Source: a virus. From it: 27,325 nt of DNA. The notes under the pieces are model-generated. The model was not told where the DNA came from. It saw nothing but the letters and a program-made list of their open reading frames with translations, and ran no database searches. A program made the translations under genes and the position numbers. The first letter of the stretch is position 1; each line of letters begins with the position of its first letter. Location of the stretch: IMG/VR virus record IMGVR_UViG_3300023215_002132, positions 1 through 27,325 of that record; one strand, given 5' to 3'. Shown here one piece after another: positions 10,113 to 27,065 of the stretch.

Positions 10113-10586
10113 ATGACAAAAAAATTAGAAGACCTATTTGATCTTGCTGACGCTTCAGAGGAAGAACAAGAAGAATCCGAAACTAGCGAAATAGTTGTAA
10201 AAAAACTAGAAGCTACACTCAAAGATGTAGACAAGGTTGATGCTGCTTTGCCAACAGTTCGTGATTTAGAAACAAGCGACCAGGAATTAGACGAGATCGC
10301 CGAAACTGCTAAAAATACATTTAATGATTTAATGGATCTAGGTATGAATGTTGAAGCACGATATTCTGGCGATGTGTTTAACAATGCTAGTCGCATGCTT
10401 GAGACTGCACTAACAGCAAAAATAAACAAAATAAACAAAAAGCTTAAAATGGTGGAACTCCAAATTAAAAAAGCACAATTAGATCTTAGACAACAACAAA
10501 GTGGGCACGAAATCGCCGCTGAGGGAGACGGAATTGTTATTGATCGTAACGCTTTGTTGCAAGAAATTTTAAATAAAAAAGAATAA
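10113..10586 (+). CDS. 16: Small terminase subunit (gp16-like)
   Basis: A 157-residue protein. An earlier in-frame ATG at 10083 lies inside the radical SAM gene, so the ATG at 10113 (MTKKLEDLFDLAD) is preferred. It has an acidic N-terminal segment (DASEEEQEESE), then a helical core (TFNDLMDLGMNVEARYSG, ASRMLETALTAKINKINKKL) that reads as a long coiled coil, then a polar tail. This is the architecture of T4 gp16 (164 residues), which recognises phage DNA and stimulates the large terminase ATPase. The large subunit lies about 2.6 kb downstream instead of adjacent as in T4. Confidence 0.72.
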   Translation: MTKKLEDLFDLADASEEEQEESETSEIVVKKLEATLKDVDKVDAALPTVRDLETSDQELDEIAETAKNTFNDLMDLGMNVEARYSGDVFNNASRMLETALTAKINKINKKLKMVELQIKKAQLDLRQQQSGHEIAAEGDGIVIDRNALLQEILNKKE

Positions 10587-10611: not shown

Positions 10612-11112
10612 ATGAAAACTTTTAAGACATATCTTACGGAAAATGAACGCACATATAACTTTAGAATTAAAATGGCAAACATGCCTGAGAAAGAAGTACT
10701 AGATACGCTAGAAACTGCTCTTGAGAAGTATGAATTAAAAAGCATAAGCAAACCCAAGAAAACACCAATACAAGAGCATCCAATGGACTTTCAGACATTA
10801 AATAACGCCGAAGTTTATATTATGGATGTGGAATTTTCTTATCCATCTACAGCAGATCAGCTTTACCACTATATTAGTAAAGTAGTCGGTGTGCCAGAAA
10901 GTCATCTTGTTGTTATTAATAAAGATCACCCGGAAGAAATTGCTAGGGAAGAAAAAGTTAAAGAATCTGGTGAAGAGTATACGTCAAAACTAGAGGACAG
11001 TGAATATAAAGACGGCAAAAATGTAAAAGCAGAAGAGCATTATGGTGATAAGTATAACGAAACTATGCTTAAGGAATTAGAAACTCGCAAGTACGAGTTT
11101 GCAAAGGAATAG
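10612..11112 (+). CDS. Hypothetical protein with capsid-targeting-like N terminus
   Basis: A 166-residue protein; a TTG-started version from 10600 is possible but the ATG at 10612 is better placed after the late promoter. The N terminus MKTFKTYLTE closely resembles the T4 internal-protein capsid-targeting sequence MKTYQEFIAE, which gp21 protease removes after (I/L)xE. Here LTE10 would be the cleavage site. Residues about 50-110 (EVYIMDVEFSYPSTADQLYH, VVGVPESHLVVIN) look like a small alpha/beta domain. The last 50 are highly charged. It could be a packaged internal protein or a prohead core component; the targeting signal is inferred from resemblance only. Confidence 0.7.
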   Translation: MKTFKTYLTENERTYNFRIKMANMPEKEVLDTLETALEKYELKSISKPKKTPIQEHPMDFQTLNNAEVYIMDVEFSYPSTADQLYHYISKVVGVPESHLVVINKDHPEEIAREEKVKESGEEYTSKLEDSEYKDGKNVKAEEHYGDKYNETMLKELETRKYEFAKE

Positions 11113-11116
11113 AACA

Positions 11117-11203
11117 ATGCATATGATTGATGTTTTAGATAAACTGAAGGAAATTCAGGAAAATTATGACAACGAGGACATTCAGCGAAGGCATTTCTCA
11201 TAG
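11117..11203 (+). pseudogene. 5' fragment of a frame-disrupted gene
   Basis: ATG at 11117 with a good AAAGGA site at 11103-11108 opens a frame that reads MHMIDVLDKLKEIQENYDNE and stops at 11201-11203. It looks like a genuine phage N terminus. Removing one base of the GG at 11190-11191 joins it to the next frame (11166-11630). It contains IQE at residues 13-15, compatible with a prohead-protease site. I read it as the start of a single gene broken by an indel. Confidence 0.5.
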
Positions 11204-11630
11204 TTGTGCTACACATTTTACACACGAAAAATTTGGAGAAGGCACAGTTATTCACGGCGAGCATACATTAAGTGAAGGCGGTGAAGTTAGTCATTATGAT
11301 GCTAAGTTTGTAAAAGAAGATGGCTCACCATTTATTGTTCGTAATATTCCTGTAGCAAATATGCATGAGACTGTTGTAGTAGAGCACAGTCACCAGCCGA
11401 ATAAGAGAAAGAGGGCTCAGCTGTATCTAGGAAAGTTTGACGAAGAAGTAGTTGACGAGGGCCATACCTCACCTGAGCTGCTGAGCTACATGAGCCAGAA
11501 ATGGAAGAGTTTTACGACGATCTGTATGAGTATTTCACGCAGGATATTGAGGGTGGAATGCCATATGGTACAGCAAAAGGAAGAACGGGCGATCCATATG
11601 ACTATATTAGTAATGAACTTGATAATATAG
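11166..11630 (+). CDS. Middle segment of disrupted acidic phage protein (KOW-like)
   Basis: The coding-looking part runs from about SHSCATHFTHEKFGEGTVIH to VVDEGHTSPE (about 11194-11477). It resembles a small beta-barrel phage domain with the phrases KFGEGTVI, SHYDAKFV and IPVANM, followed by a His/Lys-rich linker. Residues after about 104 are out-of-frame translation of the next ORF and are not real protein. The ATG at 11166 could serve as an independent start (CAGGA five bases upstream), but the in-frame continuation from 11117 via a one-base shift seems more natural. Adding one G near 11477 (GAG to GAGG) joins it to 11501-12280 as EGHTSPEAAELHEPEMEE. Confidence 0.5.
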   Translation: MTTRTFSEGISHSCATHFTHEKFGEGTVIHGEHTLSEGGEVSHYDAKFVKEDGSPFIVRNIPVANMHETVVVEHSHQPNKRKRAQLYLGKFDEEVVDEGHTSPELLSYMSQKWKSFTTICMSISRRILRVECHMVQQKEERAIHMTILVMNLII

Positions 11631-12280
11631 ATAACTCATATGCAGTTGGTGAAAATACAGTTGAAGAAGTTCATGAGGAAGTAAATGATGAACTAGCAGA
11701 TATTATTAAACTTGCTGGGCGTAACAGCGTATTAGGGCTAAGTCAGAATACTATTATTGCTGAAAGTACAGAGCTTAGCGAAGAAGACGAGCTTGAAGAA
11801 GGACAAAGTTTAGCACAGAAAGCAGCTTTCGAAAAGATGATTGCCGCTAAAAATGGTAATAAAGTAGAAGCGGATTCTGATTCCGATGATGCTGATAAAG
11901 ATAAAGAAGCACTAAAAGACTCAGTTGATGAAGACTGTAACTATCGCGAAGAAGCAATAGAAGAAACAGTTGAAGTTCCTTTAAGTGAACTAGCAGATCT
12001 TTTGCGTCTAGCTGGTTACGAAAATTATGAAGAAAAACTTTCTGAGTACGAAAATGAACCAGAAGAAGAGTACTTTGATGTAGAACATCAACTTATTGGT
12101 TTAGCAGGCGGATTAAACCGTCCAAAAATTATGCATCCAACAGTAGCCGGTGGTGATAATCCAATGGCAGTTATTCCTGTTAAGGTAGATGAAGAAGAAG
12201 ATATGGTTGAGAAAATATATCAAAACTACCGAAGTTTTGTTGATGAAGCAATGCAAGAACAGTGCTCGACTAATAAATAA
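11501..12280 (+). CDS. Acidic phage protein, 3' segment, with LAG motifs
   Basis: A 259-residue very acidic protein. The frame is open from just after a TGA at 11474-11476, so coding probably extends upstream of this ATG (AAELHEPEMEEFYDDLYEYF). Residues 1-40 contain EYFTQDIEGGMPYGTAKGRT, a phrase I associate with marine T4-like phage proteins. Two copies of a short amphipathic motif follow: ELADIIKLAG (about 67-76) and ELADLLRLAG (about 161-170). The tail includes IMHPTVAGGDNPMAVIPV. Acid-rich composition and location between gp16 and gp17 fit a scaffold, prohead core or internal protein; function is unknown. Probably the 3' part of one gene starting at 11117. Confidence 0.7.
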   Translation: MEEFYDDLYEYFTQDIEGGMPYGTAKGRTGDPYDYISNELDNIDNSYAVGENTVEEVHEEVNDELADIIKLAGRNSVLGLSQNTIIAESTELSEEDELEEGQSLAQKAAFEKMIAAKNGNKVEADSDSDDADKDKEALKDSVDEDCNYREEAIEETVEVPLSELADLLRLAGYENYEEKLSEYENEPEEEYFDVEHQLIGLAGGLNRPKIMHPTVAGGDNPMAVIPVKVDEEEDMVEKIYQNYRSFVDEAMQEQCSTNK

Positions 12281-12296
12281 TAATGAACTAGTTTTA

Positions 12297-12327
12297 GAAA
12301 AGGGTTACTTTTAAAGTAACCTTTTTT
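12297..12327 (+). terminator. Rho-independent terminator before the SOD gene
   Basis: GGTTACTT at 12303-12310 pairs with AAGTAACC at 12314-12321 around a 3-base loop, followed by six T at 12322-12327. An upstream A-run can extend pairing with the T-run. It ends the preceding operon just before the late promoter of the SOD gene. Confidence 0.85.
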
Positions 12328-12344
12328 CTTGCCTAAAATTTTCA

Positions 12345-12352
12345 ATAAATAC
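12345..12352 (+). promoter_or_regulatory. Late promoter of the SOD cassette, leaderless geometry
   Basis: ATAAATAC followed by six bases (AGTGCT) and the ATG at 12359. With transcription starting about five bases after the core, the leader would be about two bases and could hold no ribosome site. This promoter rules out the longer TTG-started reading from 12329, which would run through it. Confidence 0.7.
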
Positions 12353-12358
12353 AGTGCT

Positions 12359-12940
12359 ATGGATATAAGAACTATATTAGACACGCTTGAATATATTCAA
12401 ACTGATCAGAAACAAATTCTGATGGAAGGAAAATATACTCAAGCTAAATTACCTTATAAGCGAACAGCGTTAAGCCCTGTAATGTCAAAGGAAACATTAG
12501 ATTATCATTATGGTAAATTGCATAAAGCATATGTTAACAAAGCGAACAAGGGCGAGGGCGGAGATTTTCAAGTTGCTGGGGCTTTTTTACACAATTTATT
12601 TTTTCCACAACTAAAATCCCCAATTGGTGCAGTTAGTAATCCAAGCGGCCCATCAAAGGAATTAATTGAAAACAAACACGATTCTTTTAATAATTTTAAA
12701 AAAGCTTTTACTGAAGCTGCAATGAGTATTCAAGGATCTGGTTGGGTTTATATGAATACAAGCGGAAATATTAAAATTATTAAGAATCATAAAGTAGTAA
12801 ATAACATTGCCTTGCTTGTCGACTGGTGGGAACACGCATGGGTATTAGATTACAAGCATGATAAAGAGAAATACCTTGATAATATGTGGAAGATTATCAA
12901 TTGGGATATCGTTAATAACCGGATAAATGGAGTTAGCTAA
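12359..12940 (+). CDS. Fe/Mn-family superoxide dismutase with N-terminal extension
   Basis: A 193-residue protein. Residues about 31-190 are an iron/manganese superoxide dismutase, converting superoxide to O2 and H2O2. Ligands are H50 (ETLDYHYGK), H78 (GAFLHNLFF), D155 and H159 (VDWWEHAWVLDY); the gateway Tyr is Y58. GSGWVYM (126-132) and NWDIVNNRI are also family-typical. The position of the FeSOD outer-sphere Gln is G74, and the MnSOD Gln seems replaced by H144, so metal choice is unclear. The first about 26 residues are an extra segment ending QILME|GK, a match to the (I/L)xE prohead-protease site, suggesting a capsid-targeting propeptide (inference). It has its own late promoter and is flanked by terminators. 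Confidence 0.92.
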   Translation: MDIRTILDTLEYIQTDQKQILMEGKYTQAKLPYKRTALSPVMSKETLDYHYGKLHKAYVNKANKGEGGDFQVAGAFLHNLFFPQLKSPIGAVSNPSGPSKELIENKHDSFNNFKKAFTEAAMSIQGSGWVYMNTSGNIKIIKNHKVVNNIALLVDWWEHAWVLDYKHDKEKYLDNMWKIINWDIVNNRINGVS

Positions 12941-13219: not shown

Positions 13220-14137
13220 ATGAAATCACTTGATGGTGTAGTAATTAAAAAGGCAAATCGCCAAGAACACTTTACGCATGATCAAATTAATGCGTTTTCA
13301 AAGTGTGCTGACCCCAAAACAGGTGTATTCTATTTTCTAGACAATTATTTTAATATCCAGCACCCAATTCGGGGAAGATTGATATATAAAGCATATCCGT
13401 TTCAATTGGAACTTTTACACACTTATCACAATCATAGGTTTAATATTAATATGTTGCCTCGACAAACAGGCAAGACTACCACAGCATCTGGATACTTGTT
13501 GTGGCGCGCCATGTTTATACCTGATAGTACTATTTTAATTGCTGCTCACAAATATAGTGGCGCTCAAGAAATTATGCAGCGTATAAGGTATGCATATGAA
13601 TTGTGCCCAAACTTTATACGCGCTGGTGTAACAAGTTATAACAGAGGTAGTATCGAATTTGAAAACGGTTCACGCATAATAGCACAAGCTACAACAGAAA
13701 ATACAGGACGTGGTCTAAGTATTAGTATATTGTATTGTGATGAGTTTGCATTTGTGCGTTCAAGCATTGCTAAAGAGTTTTGGACTAGTATTTCGCCAAC
13801 CTTAGCAACAGGTGGACAAGCAATTATAACAAGTACTCCTAACAGTGACGAAGATCAATTTGCTCTTATATGGCGGGACGCAAATAAGTGCATTGATGAG
13901 CACGGTGACGAAACAGATATTGGTGTAAATGGCTTTAAAGCATTTCGCGCTTATTGGCATGAACACCCAGATAGAAATGAGCAGTGGAAAAAAGAGGAAA
14001 TAGGTCGTATTGGCGAAGAGCGTTTTAGGCGAGAGCACGACTGCTTAAGTGGTGATTCAAAAATAACTATCAAATTACAAACCGGCGAAATAAAATTAGT
14101 AACTATTAATGAACTAAAAAATTTATTGAGTTTATAA
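13220..14137 (+). CDS. 17: Large terminase gp17, N-terminal half fused to N-intein
   Basis: Residues 1-274 are the ATPase half of the T4-type packaging motor: Walker A LPRQTGKTT (79-87), Walker B ILYCDE (170-175) and coupling motif TSTPN (204-208), ending RFRREHD. Residue 275 is Cys and begins a 31-residue N-intein (CLSGDSKITI...NLLSL) that ends at a stop. The nuclease half is encoded separately from 14835. Functional gp17 therefore needs trans-splicing of the two polypeptides to join ...RREHD to CEFLIYDE..., giving about 521 residues. Start ATG 13220 has only a weak ribosome site (GAG). T4 gp17 is 610 residues; marine T4-like versions are shorter. Confidence 0.93.
   Translation: MKSLDGVVIKKANRQEHFTHDQINAFSKCADPKTGVFYFLDNYFNIQHPIRGRLIYKAYPFQLELLHTYHNHRFNINMLPRQTGKTTTASGYLLWRAMFIPDSTILIAAHKYSGAQEIMQRIRYAYELCPNFIRAGVTSYNRGSIEFENGSRIIAQATTENTGRGLSISILYCDEFAFVRSSIAKEFWTSISPTLATGGQAIITSTPNSDEDQFALIWRDANKCIDEHGDETDIGVNGFKAFRAYWHEHPDRNEQWKKEEIGRIGEERFRREHDCLSGDSKITIKLQTGEIKLVTINELKNLLSL
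14042..14134 (+). other. N-intein fragment (IntN), 31 residues
   Basis: Codes for the N-terminal splicing block: Cys1 with CLSGDSKITI (block A) and an amphipathic stretch ending in LKNLLSL. Most natural split inteins have N-fragments near 90-100 residues. This one is as short as those of the atypically split terminase inteins (AceL-TerL type) and lacks block B, which is instead on the C-fragment. Confidence 0.88.
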
Positions 14138-14152
14138 TTTACGATGAGATAG

Positions 14153-14160
14153 ATAAATAT
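14153..14160 (+). promoter_or_regulatory. Late promoter of the homing endonuclease gene
   Basis: ATAAATAT is followed by GCTT and the ATG at 14165, exactly the spacing seen before the other HNH-like gene at 2925. The predicted transcript would begin at or next to the start codon. An in-frame ATG at 14159 overlaps the promoter itself and is therefore less likely. Confidence 0.55.
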
Positions 14161-14164
14161 GCTT

Positions 14165-14851
14165 ATGCAAAAACATAAACATCATATTATACCAAAGCAT
14201 GCCGGCGGCACTGATTCTCTTGAAAATTTAGTTAAGTTAACAATCGAAGAACACGCGGAGGCACATAAGGTTTTGTATAAAGAATATAACCGATGGCAAG
14301 ATAGGGTTGCTTGGTTAAGTTTGGCAGGTATAATGAAAGACTCGGAACGCATTTATGAAATAGTAAAAAATTCAAATCGAGGAAATCCGTCGGGTTATAA
14401 ACATTCTGATGAAATAAAAAAACAGTTATCAGAATTAAAAATAGGTAAAAAAAATCCTATGTATAACAAACCCGCACACAATAGAGGTATTAAAAGGCCC
14501 GGCATTGGTGGTCGTAAAAAAGGAACGAAATGGTCGGAAGAAGAGCACCGGATACATAAAAAGATAAGGAGCAGGCCGGGCTATTATGATTATTTACAAG
14601 ACCCATCCCGGTGTAAAAAGATTAGTAATTCACGCAAAGGTAAAATAGGTGCTGCTGCTGGAAAAACTTGGTATAACAATGGCGAAAAAGAGTTATATGC
14701 TTTTAAATGTCCAGCTGGATTTATTAAAGGAAGAAAAAAACGTAAAAATTATAATAAAAAAGGATTGCTGTGGTATAATAATGGCAGTATTAATCGACAA
14801 TTTAAAGAAGGTTATGAGTTAAAGGAGTTTGTGCGTGGTAGAATTAATTAA
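14165..14851 (+). CDS. HNH homing endonuclease inserted within the split terminase
   Basis: A 228-residue basic protein (an ATG six bases earlier is possible). The N terminus KHHIIPKHAGGTDSLENLVK with LTIEEHAEAH is an HNH nuclease motif of the type common in phage homing endonucleases. HSDEIKKQLSELKIGKKNP (about 78-96) resembles a NUMOD3 DNA-binding repeat. The C terminus repeats a WYNNG segment twice (TWYNNGEKELY and LWYNNGSINRQF), likely further DNA-binding modules. It is free-standing, between the two terminase halves, and overlaps the C-intein start by 17 bases. It would spread the whole intein-endonuclease insertion into intein-less gp17 genes. Confidence 0.88.
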   Translation: MQKHKHHIIPKHAGGTDSLENLVKLTIEEHAEAHKVLYKEYNRWQDRVAWLSLAGIMKDSERIYEIVKNSNRGNPSGYKHSDEIKKQLSELKIGKKNPMYNKPAHNRGIKRPGIGGRKKGTKWSEEEHRIHKKIRSRPGYYDYLQDPSRCKKISNSRKGKIGAAAGKTWYNNGEKELYAFKCPAGFIKGRKKRKNYNKKGLLWYNNGSINRQFKEGYELKEFVRGRIN

Positions 14852-15167
14852 AAATTATAAAAATATTCAAGTTTTAACTGATTTGGGCTGGAGTAATTTT
14901 AAAGGTTTATTATGTAAAGGCGCTAAGAAAACCTTAAGGGTTAACACGAATTTAGAAGAAATTATATGTACTCCAAACCATGAGTTTTTTTTAGAAGGAT
15001 TTAAGAAAATTAAAGCAGAAGACTTAACGAGTAATACTAAAATAATTAGTAGTAACGGTATTGTAAATGTAATTGATATTGTATTTAATAAAGATGAAGA
15101 AGTATATGATTTATGCGAAGTAGAAAAAAATCACCGTTTTTATGCGAATAATTTATTAGTCTCAAAT
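14835..15167 (+). other. C-intein fragment (IntC), 111 residues
   Basis: Carries splicing blocks B, F and G. Block B is TPNHEFFL, with the conserved Thr and His; block F is VYDLCEVEKNHRFYANNL; block G is VSN followed by Cys+1. The last Asn is the cyclising residue. The usual preceding His is Ser, a known but uncommon variation. The C-intein is long because the split falls before block B. Confidence 0.88.
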
Positions 15168-15911
15168 TGTGAATTTCTTATCTATGATGAAACATTAATT
15201 GATAGCATGGTGTTAAGCAATATGCGAGGTCGCGATACTTTGTTTAGGCAAGGTACAGTGCGCTGGTTTAAGAAGCCTACACAAGGCAAATGTTACATAA
15301 TAGCATTAGACCCTAGTCTGGGTACGGGCGGCGACCCAGCAGCAATACAAGTATTTGATGTACCCAGCATGGAACAAGTAGCAGAATGGCAGCATAATAA
15401 AACACCTATACCCCAGCAAGTACAAATACTAATGAATATTTGTAAGTACATAAACGAAGAAACAAAAGAAGAAAATAATATCTATTATAGCGTTGAAAAC
15501 AATACTTTAGGCGAGGCTGCATTAGTTAGCATAGCAGATATAGGAGAAGAAAATATACCAGGAACATTCATAAGTGAAAGCAAGCGATCACATGGCAATA
15601 GCAGATTATTTAGAAAAGGATTCAATACTACTCAACGTGTTAAACTGTCGACTTGTGCAAAACTAAAAACATTAGTCGAAACAGGAAAAATGACTATTAA
15701 TAGCAAAAACCTTATAAGTGAATTTAAAACTTTTATTGCTAACGGCGCTAGTTATTCAGCTAAGTTGGGCGAAACAGACGATCTAGTAATGAGTACAGTT
15801 TTAGTAATTCGTATAGCAAACGAACTTAAAAATTATGTCCTAGAACTCGACATGCAAATTAGAGACACACATGACTACGATATCTCTCCTATGCCTTTTG
15901 TTGTATTTTAA
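14835..15911 (+). CDS. 17: C-intein fused to large terminase gp17 nuclease half
   Basis: GTG at 14835 is chosen because AAGGAG at 14822-14827 lies seven bases upstream; an in-frame TTG at 14829 is closer to it. Residues 1-111 are the C-intein (block B TPNHEFFL at 46-53; block F EVEKNHRFYANNLLVSN ending at Asn111). The C-extein starts with Cys (codon 15168-15170) as CEFLIYDE, a junction that fits the conserved CEF segment of gp17. The remaining 247 residues hold the RNase H-like nuclease, with IIALDPSLGTGGDPA (first acidic residue D48 of the extein), YSVENN and GETDDLVMS. The penultimate intein residue is Ser, not His. Confidence 0.92.
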   Translation: MVELIKNYKNIQVLTDLGWSNFKGLLCKGAKKTLRVNTNLEEIICTPNHEFFLEGFKKIKAEDLTSNTKIISSNGIVNVIDIVFNKDEEVYDLCEVEKNHRFYANNLLVSNCEFLIYDETLIDSMVLSNMRGRDTLFRQGTVRWFKKPTQGKCYIIALDPSLGTGGDPAAIQVFDVPSMEQVAEWQHNKTPIPQQVQILMNICKYINEETKEENNIYYSVENNTLGEAALVSIADIGEENIPGTFISESKRSHGNSRLFRKGFNTTQRVKLSTCAKLKTLVETGKMTINSKNLISEFKTFIANGASYSAKLGETDDLVMSTVLVIRIANELKNYVLELDMQIRDTHDYDISPMPFVVF

Positions 15912-21593: not shown

Positions 21594-22352
21594 ATGTTTT
21601 CAACACCAAAAGAAAGTCACAAACATAGTTTAGAAACATTGAATATACTAGACGGCTTTATTGATTTTAAGTGTAGTATAAATGACTTATTAGATATAGG
21701 GTGTGGAAAATGCTACGACTTAAGTTGGTGGGTAAATATAAACGACGGAGATTTAAAAAACCCGCAACCGCTTAATATTAAATGTGTTGGCTTAGATATT
21801 ATCAAGCCGAGTAACAAAGAAAGTATGCATGAAAATATTTATTTTGTTGAGCACGATTTTAATAGCACAGATAGGCTTCCATTTAGTGATAGAAAATTTG
21901 ATGTAGTATGGTGTCATGATGTATTACAGTATGCACATAATCCATTAAAGCTATTGGGTGCAATTAATTATCAGATGGCTACCAATAGTATGCTCTATAT
22001 TTGCGTTCCTAGCACAGTAAATGTATTGCATGGTAAATTTCATAATTATACTTTTAGCAAGTATTATAGTACTTTTACTATGACACAGTTAATTTATTTA
22101 CTCGCATTAAATGGATTTGATTGCAAGAACGGTTATTTTAAGAAAAATGCTTACGAAGATATAATACAAATAGTTACATATAAAAATACAGAACCATATG
22201 ATTATGGTAGTAGCTGGTATAATTTATTAGAAGAAAATGTATTTTCTGACAATATATCTAAGATAATTTCTTCTAAAGGATATCTTACCGACAACGGTTT
22301 AGTAACTACGTGGTTGGACGGTGAGGTATATGATTATAGGTATCATAGTTAG
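21594..22352 (+). CDS. Class I SAM-dependent methyltransferase
   Basis: A 252-residue Rossmann-fold methyltransferase: motif I LLDIGCGKC (about 32-40), motif II VGLDI (65-69), a DF segment at 88-89 (EHDFNSTDRLPF), and FDVVWCHDVLQYAHNP (about 102-117), the small-molecule methyltransferase pattern. The substrate is unknown. It begins the accessory block that also holds glycosyltransferase-like genes, so a sugar substrate is possible (inference). Its end abuts the convergent gene at 22353 with no gap. There is no target-recognition domain, so it is unlikely to be a DNA methylase. Confidence 0.85.
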   Translation: MFSTPKESHKHSLETLNILDGFIDFKCSINDLLDIGCGKCYDLSWWVNINDGDLKNPQPLNIKCVGLDIIKPSNKESMHENIYFVEHDFNSTDRLPFSDRKFDVVWCHDVLQYAHNPLKLLGAINYQMATNSMLYICVPSTVNVLHGKFHNYTFSKYYSTFTMTQLIYLLALNGFDCKNGYFKKNAYEDIIQIVTYKNTEPYDYGSSWYNLLEENVFSDNISKIISSKGYLTDNGLVTTWLDGEVYDYRYHS

Positions 22353-23213
22353 TTAAAGTTTGGTCCTTATTCTTTTCCACTGTACTTCAATTTCGTCAGC
22401 AAACCATTCAATATAGCTCATGCGACATAACCAATCATAACGATCCGGACGCCGCAAATTATCGATGCTTGGGCTGCCGACATCGTACGAGACGCTATGC
22501 TCACTAACTATAGCTGGTACTCCGTTCAGCACACTAGTTAATCCAGCATTGCTACTGTAACTATAAACGCAATAAGTGTGTTTTAGCTGATCTTCAAAAT
22601 CAAAACTATCGTAAGTGTTGTGTACTTGCTTAGCTATGTTCCACTCACAATCTTGTTGCTTAAACCATTCAGAGTTTGTAACAGGAAAATGTATATTTTC
22701 TCTAAATCTAGGATGACTACGCAACACAATGGGCTTGTTTGTGTGCGTACGAATTTCTTCTACAGTTTGCTTATAATAAGTTTCCATATTAGGCATATGT
22801 TCCCATTGTAAACTATGCGCGTGTTGTCCTGCAACAACTATATATTCACCATCCTCGCGCCAATTGACAATTAAATCTAAACCAAATAATTTTAGTCTGC
22901 TGTCATCATAACCATGGTCGAGAGCAAAGTCAGCATCTCTGTTAATTCCATTAATACCAAGTTTCCAAGATTTGTTTCGTACTAACCCCCCAACTTCAAT
23001 TACTATTACAGGTTTATTCTGTGCTCTATAATAGTCCCATACTTGTTTATTGCCGGACATACGTCCAAACCAGAGAACACTCCATATAAGAGCAGCATCT
23101 GCGTTCATATTGTTTTCAACTAACTCATCTGTTTTCTTTATAGCACTAAGTACTCGCGTGTAAACTAGATCATTATTAGTTGGAAGATTATTTGGAAAGT
23201 GTGAAATTTTCAT
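22353..23213 (-). CDS. Capsule-synthesis/GT-B-like glycosyltransferase family protein
   Basis: A 286-residue leftward gene. Two conserved-looking spots suggest a GT-B fold of the KpsC/KpsS-like capsule class: IVLRSHPRF (163-170) and YSSNAGLTSVLNGVPAI (219-235), where such enzymes hold a sugar-nucleotide phosphate. IVVAGQHAHSLQW lies between the halves. The length is shorter than typical capsule synthases. It would act in the cytoplasm, on host surface sugars or a phage glycan; no direct evidence tells which. The ATG at 23213 has no ribosome site. A GTAAATAC late motif is on the minus strand 30 bases upstream. Confidence 0.7.
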   Translation of the reverse strand: MKISHFPNNLPTNNDLVYTRVLSAIKKTDELVENNMNADAALIWSVLWFGRMSGNKQVWDYYRAQNKPVIVIEVGGLVRNKSWKLGINGINRDADFALDHGYDDSRLKLFGLDLIVNWREDGEYIVVAGQHAHSLQWEHMPNMETYYKQTVEEIRTHTNKPIVLRSHPRFRENIHFPVTNSEWFKQQDCEWNIAKQVHNTYDSFDFEDQLKHTYCVYSYSSNAGLTSVLNGVPAIVSEHSVSYDVGSPSIDNLRRPDRYDWLCRMSYIEWFADEIEVQWKRIRTKL

Positions 23214-23251
23214 ATAAATACTGATAATATGTGTATATTATCGGTATTTAC
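23214..23251. promoter_or_regulatory. Face-to-face late promoters in an imperfect palindrome
   Basis: Plus strand: ATAAATAC at 23214-23221 fires right, seven bases before the ATG at 23229. Minus strand: GTAAATAC (23251 down to 23244) fires left toward the gene starting at 23213. Between them GATAATAT (23223-23230) and ATATTATC (23235-23242) pair perfectly around GTGT, so the whole region is an inverted repeat covering the rightward start codon. Confidence 0.6.
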
Positions 23252-24113
23252 CACGTGGCACACGCCCGGGTATAAAAAGTACGGAAAAGAGTTTATCAAT
23301 AATTATCTGTATAATTGGCCCGGACAAGTACATTTAACAATTTACGCAGAAGATCACGAACCCGATTCTTTTAATGCAGATAATATTACAGTATTAGACC
23401 AACGAATAACGCTGCCGGAGTTAAAGGCATGGCAAGAACGTCATAAAGATAACCCCCATGCTAACGGGTGGAATAAAGATAAAACAAAGAAAAGTTTTCT
23501 TTGGGACGCTAGTCGCTTTGCTAATAAAACGTTTGCAGTTTGGCACTTTGCAAAATATACAAACGCTGATGTTATGATTTGGTGCGACGGCGATGTGAAA
23601 ACACATACACTCATGCCAGTTGAATTCTTACATAGCATTGCTCCTAATAAAAATCAACTAGCAACATATTTAGGCCGTAATACTTGGCCTGAGTGTGGAT
23701 GGATGATGTTTAACAGACACCATTCTCAGTTTAAAGACTTTATGGAATACTGGGAGAATATTTATACTAGTGATGATATTTTTAATCACATTGAGTATCA
23801 CGATAGCTTTATTTTTGGTGAGATAGTTAACGAATTTAAAAAGCGAGGCGTAAAGTTTAGAAATCTAGGCGGCGATGATCAGGGTGGCCACATCTTTATT
23901 AACAGTGAGCTTGGTGCATACATGGATCATCTAAAAGGGTTTAGAAAAGAGGTAGGTAAAAGTTTAATAGGAGATGTTACAGGAAAATTCAAACATCATG
24001 ATAACAAGTGGTGGCAGGATATGCAAGACATTACTAAACAAGGAATACGTGCAGCAAAGTTAAAAAAACCGTACGAATATGATGCACAGGAATTAAAATC
24101 GAAATCAAAATGA
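23229..24113 (+). CDS. Glycosyltransferase-like protein (GT-A, DxD)
   Basis: A 294-residue soluble protein. MIWCDGDVKTH (116-126) contains a DxD-type metal/sugar-nucleotide motif (D120, D122) preceded by hydrophobic strands, as in GT-A glycosyltransferases. LSVFTTWHT at the N terminus begins a Rossmann-like half, and WMMFNRHHSQF and EYHDSFIFGEI resemble acceptor-side elements. Related proteins occur in marine T4-like phages. The C-terminal tail is basic (RAAKLKKPYEYDAQELKSKSK, about 274-294). It overlaps the next gene by four bases (ATGA). The acceptor is unknown; DNA, virion protein and host glycan are all possible. Confidence 0.75.
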   Translation: MCILSVFTTWHTPGYKKYGKEFINNYLYNWPGQVHLTIYAEDHEPDSFNADNITVLDQRITLPELKAWQERHKDNPHANGWNKDKTKKSFLWDASRFANKTFAVWHFAKYTNADVMIWCDGDVKTHTLMPVEFLHSIAPNKNQLATYLGRNTWPECGWMMFNRHHSQFKDFMEYWENIYTSDDIFNHIEYHDSFIFGEIVNEFKKRGVKFRNLGGDDQGGHIFINSELGAYMDHLKGFRKEVGKSLIGDVTGKFKHHDNKWWQDMQDITKQGIRAAKLKKPYEYDAQELKSKSK

Positions 24114-24883
24114 GTAATACTATCAGCGTAATACAAAATATAAAGACTACTTTCAGTAACCCATTTCCTCATGTTACCGTTGACGATGCGCTCCCGGATA
24201 GTATTTACAACGAGTTAGAAGCTACGTTTCCTGCCGAACTAGTGTGTAGCACGCAACCCCATGACGGCGGTATTACGTATCGTTATAAAGCAAATCCTGC
24301 GTTAATTAATGGATTTTTGCCCAGCATATGGCAAGAGTTTTTTGAATACCATACAAGTAGCGAATATTTTAGAGGATGCATTAGTTTGTTTGAGGCGTCA
24401 ATTGAAAAATACTACCCACATCTATTAGAGGATTTATATAATAAACCGGTTAGTATTAGAGACATAGATGACTCAGGGCATTTTGTTACAGATTGTCAGT
24501 TTGTTATACATGAGCCCGTAGCAGAAACAAGTACAAGTAGAACTCCTCATGTTGATAACCCAGTGGAAATATATGCTGGATTGCTTTATATGCGTAGGCC
24601 AGAAGACGAAAGCACTGGAGGAAATTTTACAATACACGAAACTACAGGAGAAATTACAGAAGTAAATAAAACATTAGGACGACAAGTAGATAACAGTTTA
24701 CACCAACCTATTAAACAAATTCCGTATAAACGTAATGTATTTTGCATGTTCTTAAATGTTAAGGGTAGTGTACACAGTGTTACGCCTCGTATAGGCGCCA
24801 CTGAACGTAGATACAGCATTAATATTATTGGTGAGTTTAATAAAACAGGACGCATGTGGAAGGTTAAAGAACTTAAAAGTTAA
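24110..24883 (+). CDS. 2-oxoglutarate/Fe(II)-dependent oxygenase
   Basis: A 257-residue jelly-roll dioxygenase. The iron triad is H147-x-D149 (RTPHVDN) and H222 (GSVHSVTPR), with R233/R234 in ERRYSINI as the 2-oxoglutarate-binding position. The order and spacing match the prolyl-hydroxylase-like family found widely in marine phages. It would hydroxylate a protein, sugar or nucleic acid using O2. Start and stop overlap both neighbours by a few bases, so it is cotranslated with the glycosyltransferase-like gene and the kinase-like/methyltransferase fusion, suggesting a shared pathway. Confidence 0.88.
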   Translation: MSNTISVIQNIKTTFSNPFPHVTVDDALPDSIYNELEATFPAELVCSTQPHDGGITYRYKANPALINGFLPSIWQEFFEYHTSSEYFRGCISLFEASIEKYYPHLLEDLYNKPVSIRDIDDSGHFVTDCQFVIHEPVAETSTSRTPHVDNPVEIYAGLLYMRRPEDESTGGNFTIHETTGEITEVNKTLGRQVDNSLHQPIKQIPYKRNVFCMFLNVKGSVHSVTPRIGATERRYSINIIGEFNKTGRMWKVKELKS

Positions 24884-26181
24884 TGTTTGAAAGGTATACT
24901 GGAAAAACCGGTACAACTTATATTGATCATGAGCTAGGGTTAGTTTTTAAGTGGTACGATAGCCGAAATAACCCAGTTAAGTCGAATAGAGGTAGTTATG
25001 AAGCAAGTTTTCAAAGAGAAATAACTTGTTTACAAAGGCTTAGTGGCAAATTAGGGTTCCCGAATCTAGTCAATATCGACGAGGATGATTTAGTAATAGT
25101 TATGAAATACTGTGGGCCAAGCTTGTGGACAGCGTGGCCAAATTATGATCTTAAATCTTTACTCCCGCAAGTAAAAACTATTATTAATACACTGAAAGAA
25201 AATAACATAGGCTACCACCATCACAGGCTACAAGAATCACCTAAAGTTACAAACAATAATCCATTTAAGGGCAACGACAGTAGGGTTAAATATTGGTTTA
25301 GCCTTAAGAATTTTTGTGTACAAGATAATGTGCTATCATTAATAGACTTTGATCTTGCAATGCCATATAATAGTTATAATGAAAAATATTGCTTACCGGA
25401 ACTAAAATCGCTTTATTTAGATAAGCCTTATGATTACGACGTATTGTATAGCGTTATCGAAAGAAGTTTTTTAAATCCCGAAGTTAGTTTTAAATACGAT
25501 GTGCTTAATATTATTATACTAAAAGTAGAAAGGATGAAATTTGCTAAACATTTTAATAAAAAGTGGGAGAACAATCTAGCTGGTTATGTTGACATAGTCA
25601 AGGAGACGCTAATGCTAATGAAGAAGGTAGGAGAAAAAGAAATAAATGCATGGCGTAGTTATCAAAAAAGATTCGATTCGAGTGATACTTCAACAAGACT
25701 GAAAACCTTTCGTTTATTAGACTACGTAAACAAAGAGTCTAAAGTTTTGGATATTGGTTGTAATGATGGTTTTTTTGGCCTTAAGCTAGCACAACATGTA
25801 AGCGAATACTTAGGTATAGAACCTTTTGTCAACACACCAAAAGAACATCCTAGTAACTGCACTTATATTAAAAAAGATTTTAAGGACTTTCTTCAGGATA
25901 ACACTGAAATGTATGACTGCTTACTAAGCCTAGCAGTTACTATACAGATTCATGAATTTAATAGCAAAACACTTAAACAAATTGCTTGTAACTATTGTAG
26001 TTTGCTTAATCCAAACGGCGTTTTAGTGTATGAAAGTCATAAACAAACAAGTAGAAAACGCAACCAAGAACATCACAAGCAAATGGTAGACGCATTATTA
26101 GCTAATGGGTTTAAAGAGGTTATGCAAGGTGTTAGTTCCAGGCCGGGCCGTTTATTTGCTATTTTTAAAAAAGTTTCGTAA
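24883..26181 (+). CDS. Kinase-like domain fused to a SAM methyltransferase
   Basis: A 432-residue two-domain protein. Residues 1 to about 250 resemble a eukaryotic-like or aminoglycoside-type kinase: beta3 Lys K23 (LVFKWY), alphaC Glu E46 (FQREITCL), hinge VIVMKYCGPSLW, and DFG-like LIDFDLA (153-159). The catalytic loop is degenerate: HHHRL at 112-116 has no HRD Asp, and LKNFCV supplies an Asn without the Asp five residues before, so it may be a pseudokinase. Residues about 260-432 are a class I methyltransferase (VLDIGCNDGFFG at 288-299, YLGIEPF, LNPNGVLVYESH). Its neighbours suggest modification of a sugar or lipid. Confidence 0.78.
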   Translation: MFERYTGKTGTTYIDHELGLVFKWYDSRNNPVKSNRGSYEASFQREITCLQRLSGKLGFPNLVNIDEDDLVIVMKYCGPSLWTAWPNYDLKSLLPQVKTIINTLKENNIGYHHHRLQESPKVTNNNPFKGNDSRVKYWFSLKNFCVQDNVLSLIDFDLAMPYNSYNEKYCLPELKSLYLDKPYDYDVLYSVIERSFLNPEVSFKYDVLNIIILKVERMKFAKHFNKKWENNLAGYVDIVKETLMLMKKVGEKEINAWRSYQKRFDSSDTSTRLKTFRLLDYVNKESKVLDIGCNDGFFGLKLAQHVSEYLGIEPFVNTPKEHPSNCTYIKKDFKDFLQDNTEMYDCLLSLAVTIQIHEFNSKTLKQIACNYCSLLNPNGVLVYESHKQTSRKRNQEHHKQMVDALLANGFKEVMQGVSSRPGRLFAIFKKVS

Positions 26182-27065
26182 TGTTAGAAAAATACAATCA
26201 GCTAGTTGTTAGATTAAGTAAGTCGGATGACTATGCAGACACTTATAGCTTAGTGTTCGATCTAATGTTAAATAGCTTTACTCCTAAGTGGATAGATAGA
26301 TACTTGCATTCTCAACAGAGGCAAGACGTAATTAGCGAGCCATGGGCATTTTATAATTGCAATGATGCATGGAGTGTGGATTATACATGTAATTTTTTAA
26401 ACAAACACATAGATATATGTAATAGTATTGTTCCTAGTATGTTTGAAAGAAAAATATCCACAGCATTAGAACAGGACACTTTAAATCAGATACATAGTGT
26501 GTTTGAAGAATACCATGGACAGTTAGATCAATGGTTAGAAAATAATTTATTCAAGCAACCAAAGGGAGATAGACTAAGGAAGAGTCTCAGTCATATCAAT
26601 CAAACAGTACACAGATTAGAAGGTGCTAATAATAACAAGCCAAAATTGCGTGTAGTTTACTTTGAAATACCAAAAACAGAAACATTTACTGAACAAGACT
26701 ATGCGCTTTTTACAACCAGTGTAGATTTTGGCGGTGTATACATACTATATGCAGATGTTGGTAAAAACCTAGAAAGTCTGGCATATGATCAAGATGAACA
26801 TCATCATGATTTTGTTCCGAATTTACATTATAGCGTAGATTTTGTAATAAGATTATACAATGATAATGGTGTGCAAAAACGTCAACGTGTCTACGAGTAT
26901 CTACTAGAAAACTTGTCGTATTTTGTAGAAAAAGGTTATACACAGTTCGATCCTAGGCTTACCGTGGGAGCAATTAAACTTGCACAATTACAATATGAGA
27001 ATAAACAAGCAGTGCTTGATACAATATGTAACTACGACAATATTCAATCAGTTTTTATTATTTGA
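26181..27065 (+). CDS. Conserved hypothetical protein of the accessory block
   Basis: A 294-residue soluble protein starting on the last base of the previous stop (TAATG). The first 150 residues are helical with several Trp (PKWIDRYLHSQQR, ISEPWAFYNC, LDQWLENNLF). The second half (RVVYFEIPKTETFTEQDYAL, FGGVYILYADVGKN, HYSVDFVIRLYN) alternates beta and alpha and could be a small Rossmann-like fold. I recall similar proteins in marine T4-like phages but cannot give a function. Tight coupling to the fusion gene argues for a common pathway. Confidence 0.72.
   Translation: MLEKYNQLVVRLSKSDDYADTYSLVFDLMLNSFTPKWIDRYLHSQQRQDVISEPWAFYNCNDAWSVDYTCNFLNKHIDICNSIVPSMFERKISTALEQDTLNQIHSVFEEYHGQLDQWLENNLFKQPKGDRLRKSLSHINQTVHRLEGANNNKPKLRVVYFEIPKTETFTEQDYALFTTSVDFGGVYILYADVGKNLESLAYDQDEHHHDFVPNLHYSVDFVIRLYNDNGVQKRQRVYEYLLENLSYFVEKGYTQFDPRLTVGAIKLAQLQYENKQAVLDTICNYDNIQSVFII

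Follow-up and report, generated by a model that had tools for sequence, protein, structure and literature searches.

The virus record IMGVR_UViG_3300023215_002132 (27,325 bases), analysed here at its full length and called the window, carries the gene of an Fe/Mn superoxide dismutase (SOD) that has an intact enzyme core preceded by a short leader that ends in a prohead-protease cut motif. This motif is conserved in the SODs of related phages and the protease itself is encoded in phages of this group. From this we infer that the window SOD is an internal protein of the T4 style that is targeted to the capsid, trimmed by a gp21-type protease and probably ejected with the DNA to the benefit of the phage, a reading to which we assign a probability of roughly 0.77. 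That the SOD is packaged and trimmed by the protease had been proposed in a preliminary description of this DNA, and the sequence comparisons reported below support it. The mechanism would be that the Fe/Mn SOD is made as a precursor whose short disordered leader works in the manner of the capsid targeting sequence (CTS) of T4 internal proteins and attaches the SOD to the prohead core. Cleavage behind LME (residue 23) by a gp21-type protease would yield an SOD of normal length in the mature head. The SOD would then probably be ejected into the cell together with the DNA, and it would remove superoxide in the host cell or inside the head. The leader-bearing SOD is common to the window phage and over a hundred relatives.

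The SOD gene and its enzyme core

The SOD open reading frame is uninterrupted from its ATG at 12359 to the stop codon that ends at 12940 (Table 1). Both Pfam domains scored above the cut-off, Sod_Fe_N over residues 25-64 (E 2e-13, 50.8 bits) and Sod_Fe_C over residues 96-188 (E 2e-23, 82.8 bits), and no family in PHROGs matched the window SOD. The metal ligands H50, H78, D155 and H159 do not vary across 40 aligned phage SODs, and they align as His-His-Asp-His with those of solved SODs. Gly74 and His144 are also invariant in the phage core and by our reading are second-sphere positions. An AlphaFold model, built from an alignment without the SOD of phage PA5oct, had a pLDDT of 88 overall and of about 90-98 across most of the core, and Foldseek recovered the SOD fold (E about 3e-14) with archaeal and bacterial SODs as the top PDB matches (TM 0.73-0.81). 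Because the metal ligands are invariant, the core is modelled with confidence and the PDB matches are SODs, the window SOD is likely to be enzymatically active. It has the fold, the ligands and most core positions in common with the cellular Fe/Mn SODs (E. coli SodB, 1isa; Bacteroides SodFM2, 8avl; Aeropyrum, 3ak1) but differs from them in having a leader and in a core that is about 20 residues shorter in the alpha-hairpin than in solved SODs.

Table 1. Coordinates of the SOD gene and of associated features in the window
Feature	Position	Strand	Remarks
Virion structural protein gene, phrog_14802	10612..11112	+	CTS-like leader MKTFKTYLTE↓N
Terminator-like hairpin 5' of SOD gene	12303..12321		GGTTACTTTTAAAGTAACC; on the + strand then TTTTTTCT
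T4-late-promoter-like AATAAATA	12344..12351	+	Directly upstream of SOD start
SOD precursor, 193 aa	12359..12940	+	Pfam Sod_Fe_N and Sod_Fe_C, PDB matches
N-terminal leader, residues 1-23, MDIRTILDTLEYIQTDQKQILME	12359..12427	+	Proposed capsid-targeting propeptide
Proposed prohead-protease site LME↓G, residues 21-24	12419..12430	+	Cut between 12427 and 12428
Predicted mature SOD, G24 to S193	12428..12937	+	Ligands, Foldseek SOD fold

The leader and the proposed cut site

The preliminary description had noted an extra N-terminal piece that ends ILME↓G (the arrow marks the cut), and this is what we found: the Pfam domains begin at residue 25, the leader has 23 residues and the junction with the core reads MDIRTILDTLEYIQTDQKQILME↓GKYTQAK-LPY. 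The match to the T4 gp21 rule that had been claimed for this site also stands, as LME↓G conforms to the published L/I-x-E (PMC9026906). The proposed cut lies 7 residues ahead of LPY. The nearest cellular SODs, in which the leader is absent, likewise have 7 residues ahead of LPY (e.g. MAFELPALPY), and in 21 of the 22 matched cellular SOD reading frames the ATG is exactly 7 residues before LPY, the one remaining (L231) being mis-anchored. Thus, cleavage would release an almost exact SOD, as had been predicted. Residues 1-19 of the model have a pLDDT below 50 and are predicted to be disordered, and together with the confidently modelled core this places the cut site at a boundary between order and disorder. 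In the window the cut falls at residue 23, 7 residues farther from the initiating Met than in the relative L006 (residue 16). When the window leader was compared with that of L004, 5 of the 8 changed codons were nonsynonymous, which would fit a loosely constrained propeptide and is also compatible with weak selection.

The hairpin upstream of the gene was scored on the - strand, and its palindrome and T-run could work on the + strand too. On the + strand of the window, 6 of the 7 matches to the late-promoter-like motif [TAC]ATAAATA touch intergenic gaps, which make up 5.8% of the sequence (P about 1e-6). The motif is also found close 5' of the SOD gene in L004, L006 and L010, but it lies within 70 nt of the gene in only 29 of 95 family members and therefore the hairpin and AATAAATA suggest late expression of the SOD for the window only.

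Conservation of the cut motif in phage SODs

The preliminary description had named conservation of the LxE site in relatives as a check on its reading. A first sample gave 95 unique leaders and an enlarged sample of 236 phage SODs gave 142. The relaxed motif, [ILMFV]xE, was present in 141 of the 142 and the strict motif, [ILMF]xE↓[AGS], in 123, so that the site is kept. When the enlarged sample was grouped into 21 roughly independent clusters at 70% core identity, the strict motif was found in 15 clusters (binomial P about 7e-13) and the relaxed motif in 20. Among the 95 leaders of the first sample, [ILM]xE[AGS] occurred in 85, compared to a mean of 7.9 and a maximum of 17 in 2000 shuffles of the residues within the leaders, and the N-terminal background for this motif in three SOD-bearing phage genomes was 67 of 871 genes (about 8%). 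In the same 95 leaders P1 is Glu without exception and P3 is L in 76, I in 14, M in 4 and F in 1, while the remaining leader positions have high entropy; P1' is mainly G, A or S, with E, Q, D, T or V in some leaders. The distance from the cut to the core in phage SODs is mostly 9-12 residues. A leader with the motif is seemingly missing in three SODs, those of L293 (MNKQLVL), L295 and Vibrio phage 2.275.O, and a scan returned no relatives of the leaderless Vibrio SOD. The phage of L293 and Vibrio phage 2.275.O encode an S77 protease in spite of their leaderless SODs, and thus packaging is either not universal or has been lost there.

The T4 precedent and the prohead protease

In T4, gp21 cleaves after the Glu of L/I-x-E, and N-terminal propeptides of 7-65 residues come off the proteins of the mature virion (PMC9026906; PMC9958956). 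The 10-residue propeptide of IPIII is the CTS and is enough to bring foreign proteins into the head (PMC9026906; PMC9958956), with residues 4 and 7 serving targeting and residues 8 and 10 processing (PMC9026906). This bears out the earlier statement that T4 internal proteins enter the capsid by way of an N-terminal peptide. Alt is trimmed at both ends, and on ejection the internal proteins and Alt leave the head with the DNA (PMC9026906). The targeting residues of IPIII, at positions 4 and 7, are not evident in the window leader. When the SOD leader of G005 (L064), MKNFSHFIEE, was compared by eye with the T4 CTS, which we take to be MKTYQEFIAE, it matched at position 4 (F for Y) and at positions 7, 8 and 10.

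The window is a 27-kb fragment that does not include a gp21 gene, and the presence of the protease was judged from related SOD phages. G001, G002, G003, G005, PA5oct and Vibrio phage 2.275.O each have both Peptidase_S77 (gp21) and gp23. S77 was also present in 6 of 10 further SOD-bearing records, including all 4 of those over 300 kb. Taken together, every one of the six SOD-bearing IMG/VR records longer than 300 kb that entered the search has S77. The SOD-bearing records in which S77 was not found are shorter, none exceeding 217 kb, and are possibly incomplete. Candidate sites in gp23 are LTE↓A at 56 in G005 and LSE↓S at 41 in G003.

The phage SODs are thus like T4 IPI, IPII and IPIII in having a short propeptide that ends in L/I-x-E followed by a small residue, in phages with gp21 and gp23. 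They are unlike them in that the cargo would be a metalloenzyme and not a small basic protein, the leaders show more variety and in many cases greater length, and packaging is here proposed from sequence. With Alt they would share the presence of an enzyme in the head, from which a short propeptide is trimmed, and the cut at both ends of Alt has its counterpart in the SOD of L020 described below. However, Alt is another enzyme, and its packaging is proven whereas that of the SOD is proposed.

SODs of PA5oct and other cultured phages

In Pseudomonas phage PA5oct the SOD orthologue is gp223, with 39% identity over query residues 2-183 and the leader MNDSIKKYISIAE↓A (site IAE↓A), and the GenBank record of PA5oct carries an ESI-MS/MS note on gp223. 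The list of MS-flagged proteins was taken from the annotation tables. N-terminal sites, counted with N also permitted at P1' and with the first ATG as the start of unflagged reading frames, were found in 13 of 86 flagged compared to 8 of 170 unflagged proteins of at least 100 aa (p 0.007). The flag is also on ribonucleotide reductase, thymidylate synthase and DNA ligase, and because enzymes that are not part of the virion are flagged too it is no proof of packaging. The PA5oct protein labelled head maturation protease, gp212 (NC_071039.1, 180349-181020), is a ClpP by Pfam, and the true S77 protease is gp331 at 84157-84588. The SodB proteins of MIJ3 and Callisto are orthologous to gp223 and the other phage SODs. 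The SODs of PA5oct, MIJ3 and Callisto are annotated as hypothetical protein or SodB, and packaging or processing is mentioned in none of the records examined. The MIJ3 virion MS paper, which covers four abundant proteins only, does not mention superoxide, and neither do the jumbo-phage reviews examined. In agreement with the preliminary description, which knew of no virion-packaged Fe/Mn SOD, our searches found none in the literature covered, most subscription papers being outside that coverage.

An SOD within a large polypeptide

In L020 the SOD domain lies within a reading frame of 1097 aa, with FIVE↓AKEK (571) before it and PLAE↓GKSP (745) after it, and cleavage at these two sites would release the SOD domain at both ends. 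Additional candidate sites are at 8 and 421. The domain at 422-570 is found again in other large phage proteins that have no SOD. Its assignment as an ADP-ribosyltransferase (ART) was rejected, as the model had a pLDDT of 67 and no PDB match was below E 0.001. The top matches include Tpt1/KptA and DarT, presumably both of the ART superfamily, at E 0.2-0.6 alongside unrelated folds at similar E, and therefore an ART fold is suggestive only. L020 resembles the polyvalent proteins (Iyer et al. 2017, PMC5512222) in joining the SOD and other domains in one polypeptide, which is likely to be delivered with the DNA. Unlike that class, the multidomain form with SOD is found in one phage only, and the window SOD has a single domain whereas polyvalent proteins are multidomain. 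Superoxide is not mentioned in the polyvalent-protein paper (PMC5512222). A group of large multidomain phage proteins without SOD (L216-L224) shares an LYHAT domain; a P-loop-like motif is seen in L216, L219 and L224, and several members of the group have a Lys-rich GKSPHKKGTKKYKKHMAAMHANM C-terminus.

Alternative explanations

The SOD could be an ordinary cytoplasmic enzyme, with a leader that serves solubility, partner binding or regulated degradation and is never cut. We consider this unlikely. Phage SODs without a leader (L002, L293, L295) indicate that an SOD can serve in the cytoplasm, and the PA5oct MS list contains non-virion enzymes, but a cytoplasmic role leaves unexplained why L/I-x-E with a small residue after it is conserved on an otherwise variable leader, why the spacing to the core is that of cellular SODs and why the L020 SOD has motifs on both its sides. 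It is very improbable that the leader is an artefact of the gene start and that translation really begins at M22 (ATG 12422), giving the normal SOD MEGKYTQAKLPY, even though this in-frame ATG is exactly at the normal SOD start position and neither ATG has a clear Shine-Dalgarno sequence ahead of it. In L004 and L005 (82% identical) the codon is CTG, for Leu, which argues against a start there; the leader upstream of it stays in frame, and in almost all relatives the leader is present but has no Met close to the site. That the LxE match arose by chance would be conceivable for a single gene, with about 8% of phage genes matching near the N-terminus, but at the level of the family it is refuted by the cluster counts given above and is hardly credible.

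A different possibility, which we find rather doubtful, is that packaging and cutting do occur but the SOD acts inside the particle, in protecting DNA or capsid or in storing metal, and not in the host. The processing and packaging evidence would be the same as for our preferred reading, and superoxide and photochemical stress occur in surface water. A sealed head, however, would probably expose the SOD to little superoxide. By analogy with T4, whose internal proteins and Alt leave the head together with the DNA (PMC9026906), ejection is likelier than a role confined to the head.

Wider cargo

That many T4-type and jumbo phages, mostly aquatic, pack a trimmed SOD in the head and inject it, so that it protects the host from oxidative damage or blunts an oxidative defence before phage genes are expressed, is in our judgement an even bet. 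If true, phages would carry an antioxidant enzyme as pre-made cargo, and superoxide would be important during the first few minutes of an infection, or inside the particle, a point that is rarely considered. The leader rule would also be a simple predictor of head-packaged proteins in uncultured T4-type phages, and thereby their packaged proteome becomes testable.

In the 363-kb phage G001 (L115-L133), 27 of 243 genes have an N-terminal LxE[AGS] compared to 10 with the motif in an internal stretch of the protein, a difference of about 2.7-fold. Among the genes with an N-terminal site are those of a peptide deformylase, a cytidylyltransferase-like protein and a DUF6267 protein, which may be further packaged cargo. 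Leader genes clustered weakly round the SOD gene in G001 (P 0.047) and did not cluster in G003 or G005, and clustering was left out of the argument.

The source phage and the gene neighbourhood

The window comes from a T4-type marine phage, with a gp17 terminase, a gp4-type head-closure protein and a head-tail adaptor as T4-type markers. Other genes look like gp18, gp32 and UvsX from their translations, with part of the backing from syntenic relatives. The SOD gene is flanked by structural and packaging genes, in the order phrog_14802 virion protein (10612), reading frames at 11166 and 11501, SOD, a 64-aa gene and gp17, and the order around the SOD gene is the same in L004, L005, L006 and L007 as far as the records reach. 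Homologues of the phrog_14802 protein start MKTLKDYLTE↓S and MKSLKDYLTE↓S. A late-promoter-like motif is found at 10582, upstream of the phrog_14802 gene. The two reading frames within 11166-12280 are in different frames and the corresponding segments of L004 share one frame, which would reflect either a frameshift or a sequencing error.

At 13220-15911 the window has a fractured gene for the gp17 terminase. Its N-terminal part ends REHD↓CLSGDSKITIK, with the arrow at the start of an intein, and is followed by a homing endonuclease gene (phrog_655) at 14159-14851. In the C-terminal part (14829-15911) the other intein half ends LLVSN↓CEFLIYDET. The gp17 of relatives L005 and L006 has an uninterrupted REHDCEF at this place. 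Read from these junctions, the interruption is a split intein with the endonuclease between its halves, and fractured genes of the split-intein and endonuclease type have already been published. At 21594-27065 a methyltransferase-like gene is followed by a run of genes without a PHROGs match, some of which, from their translations, look like enzymes that modify sugars or small molecules.
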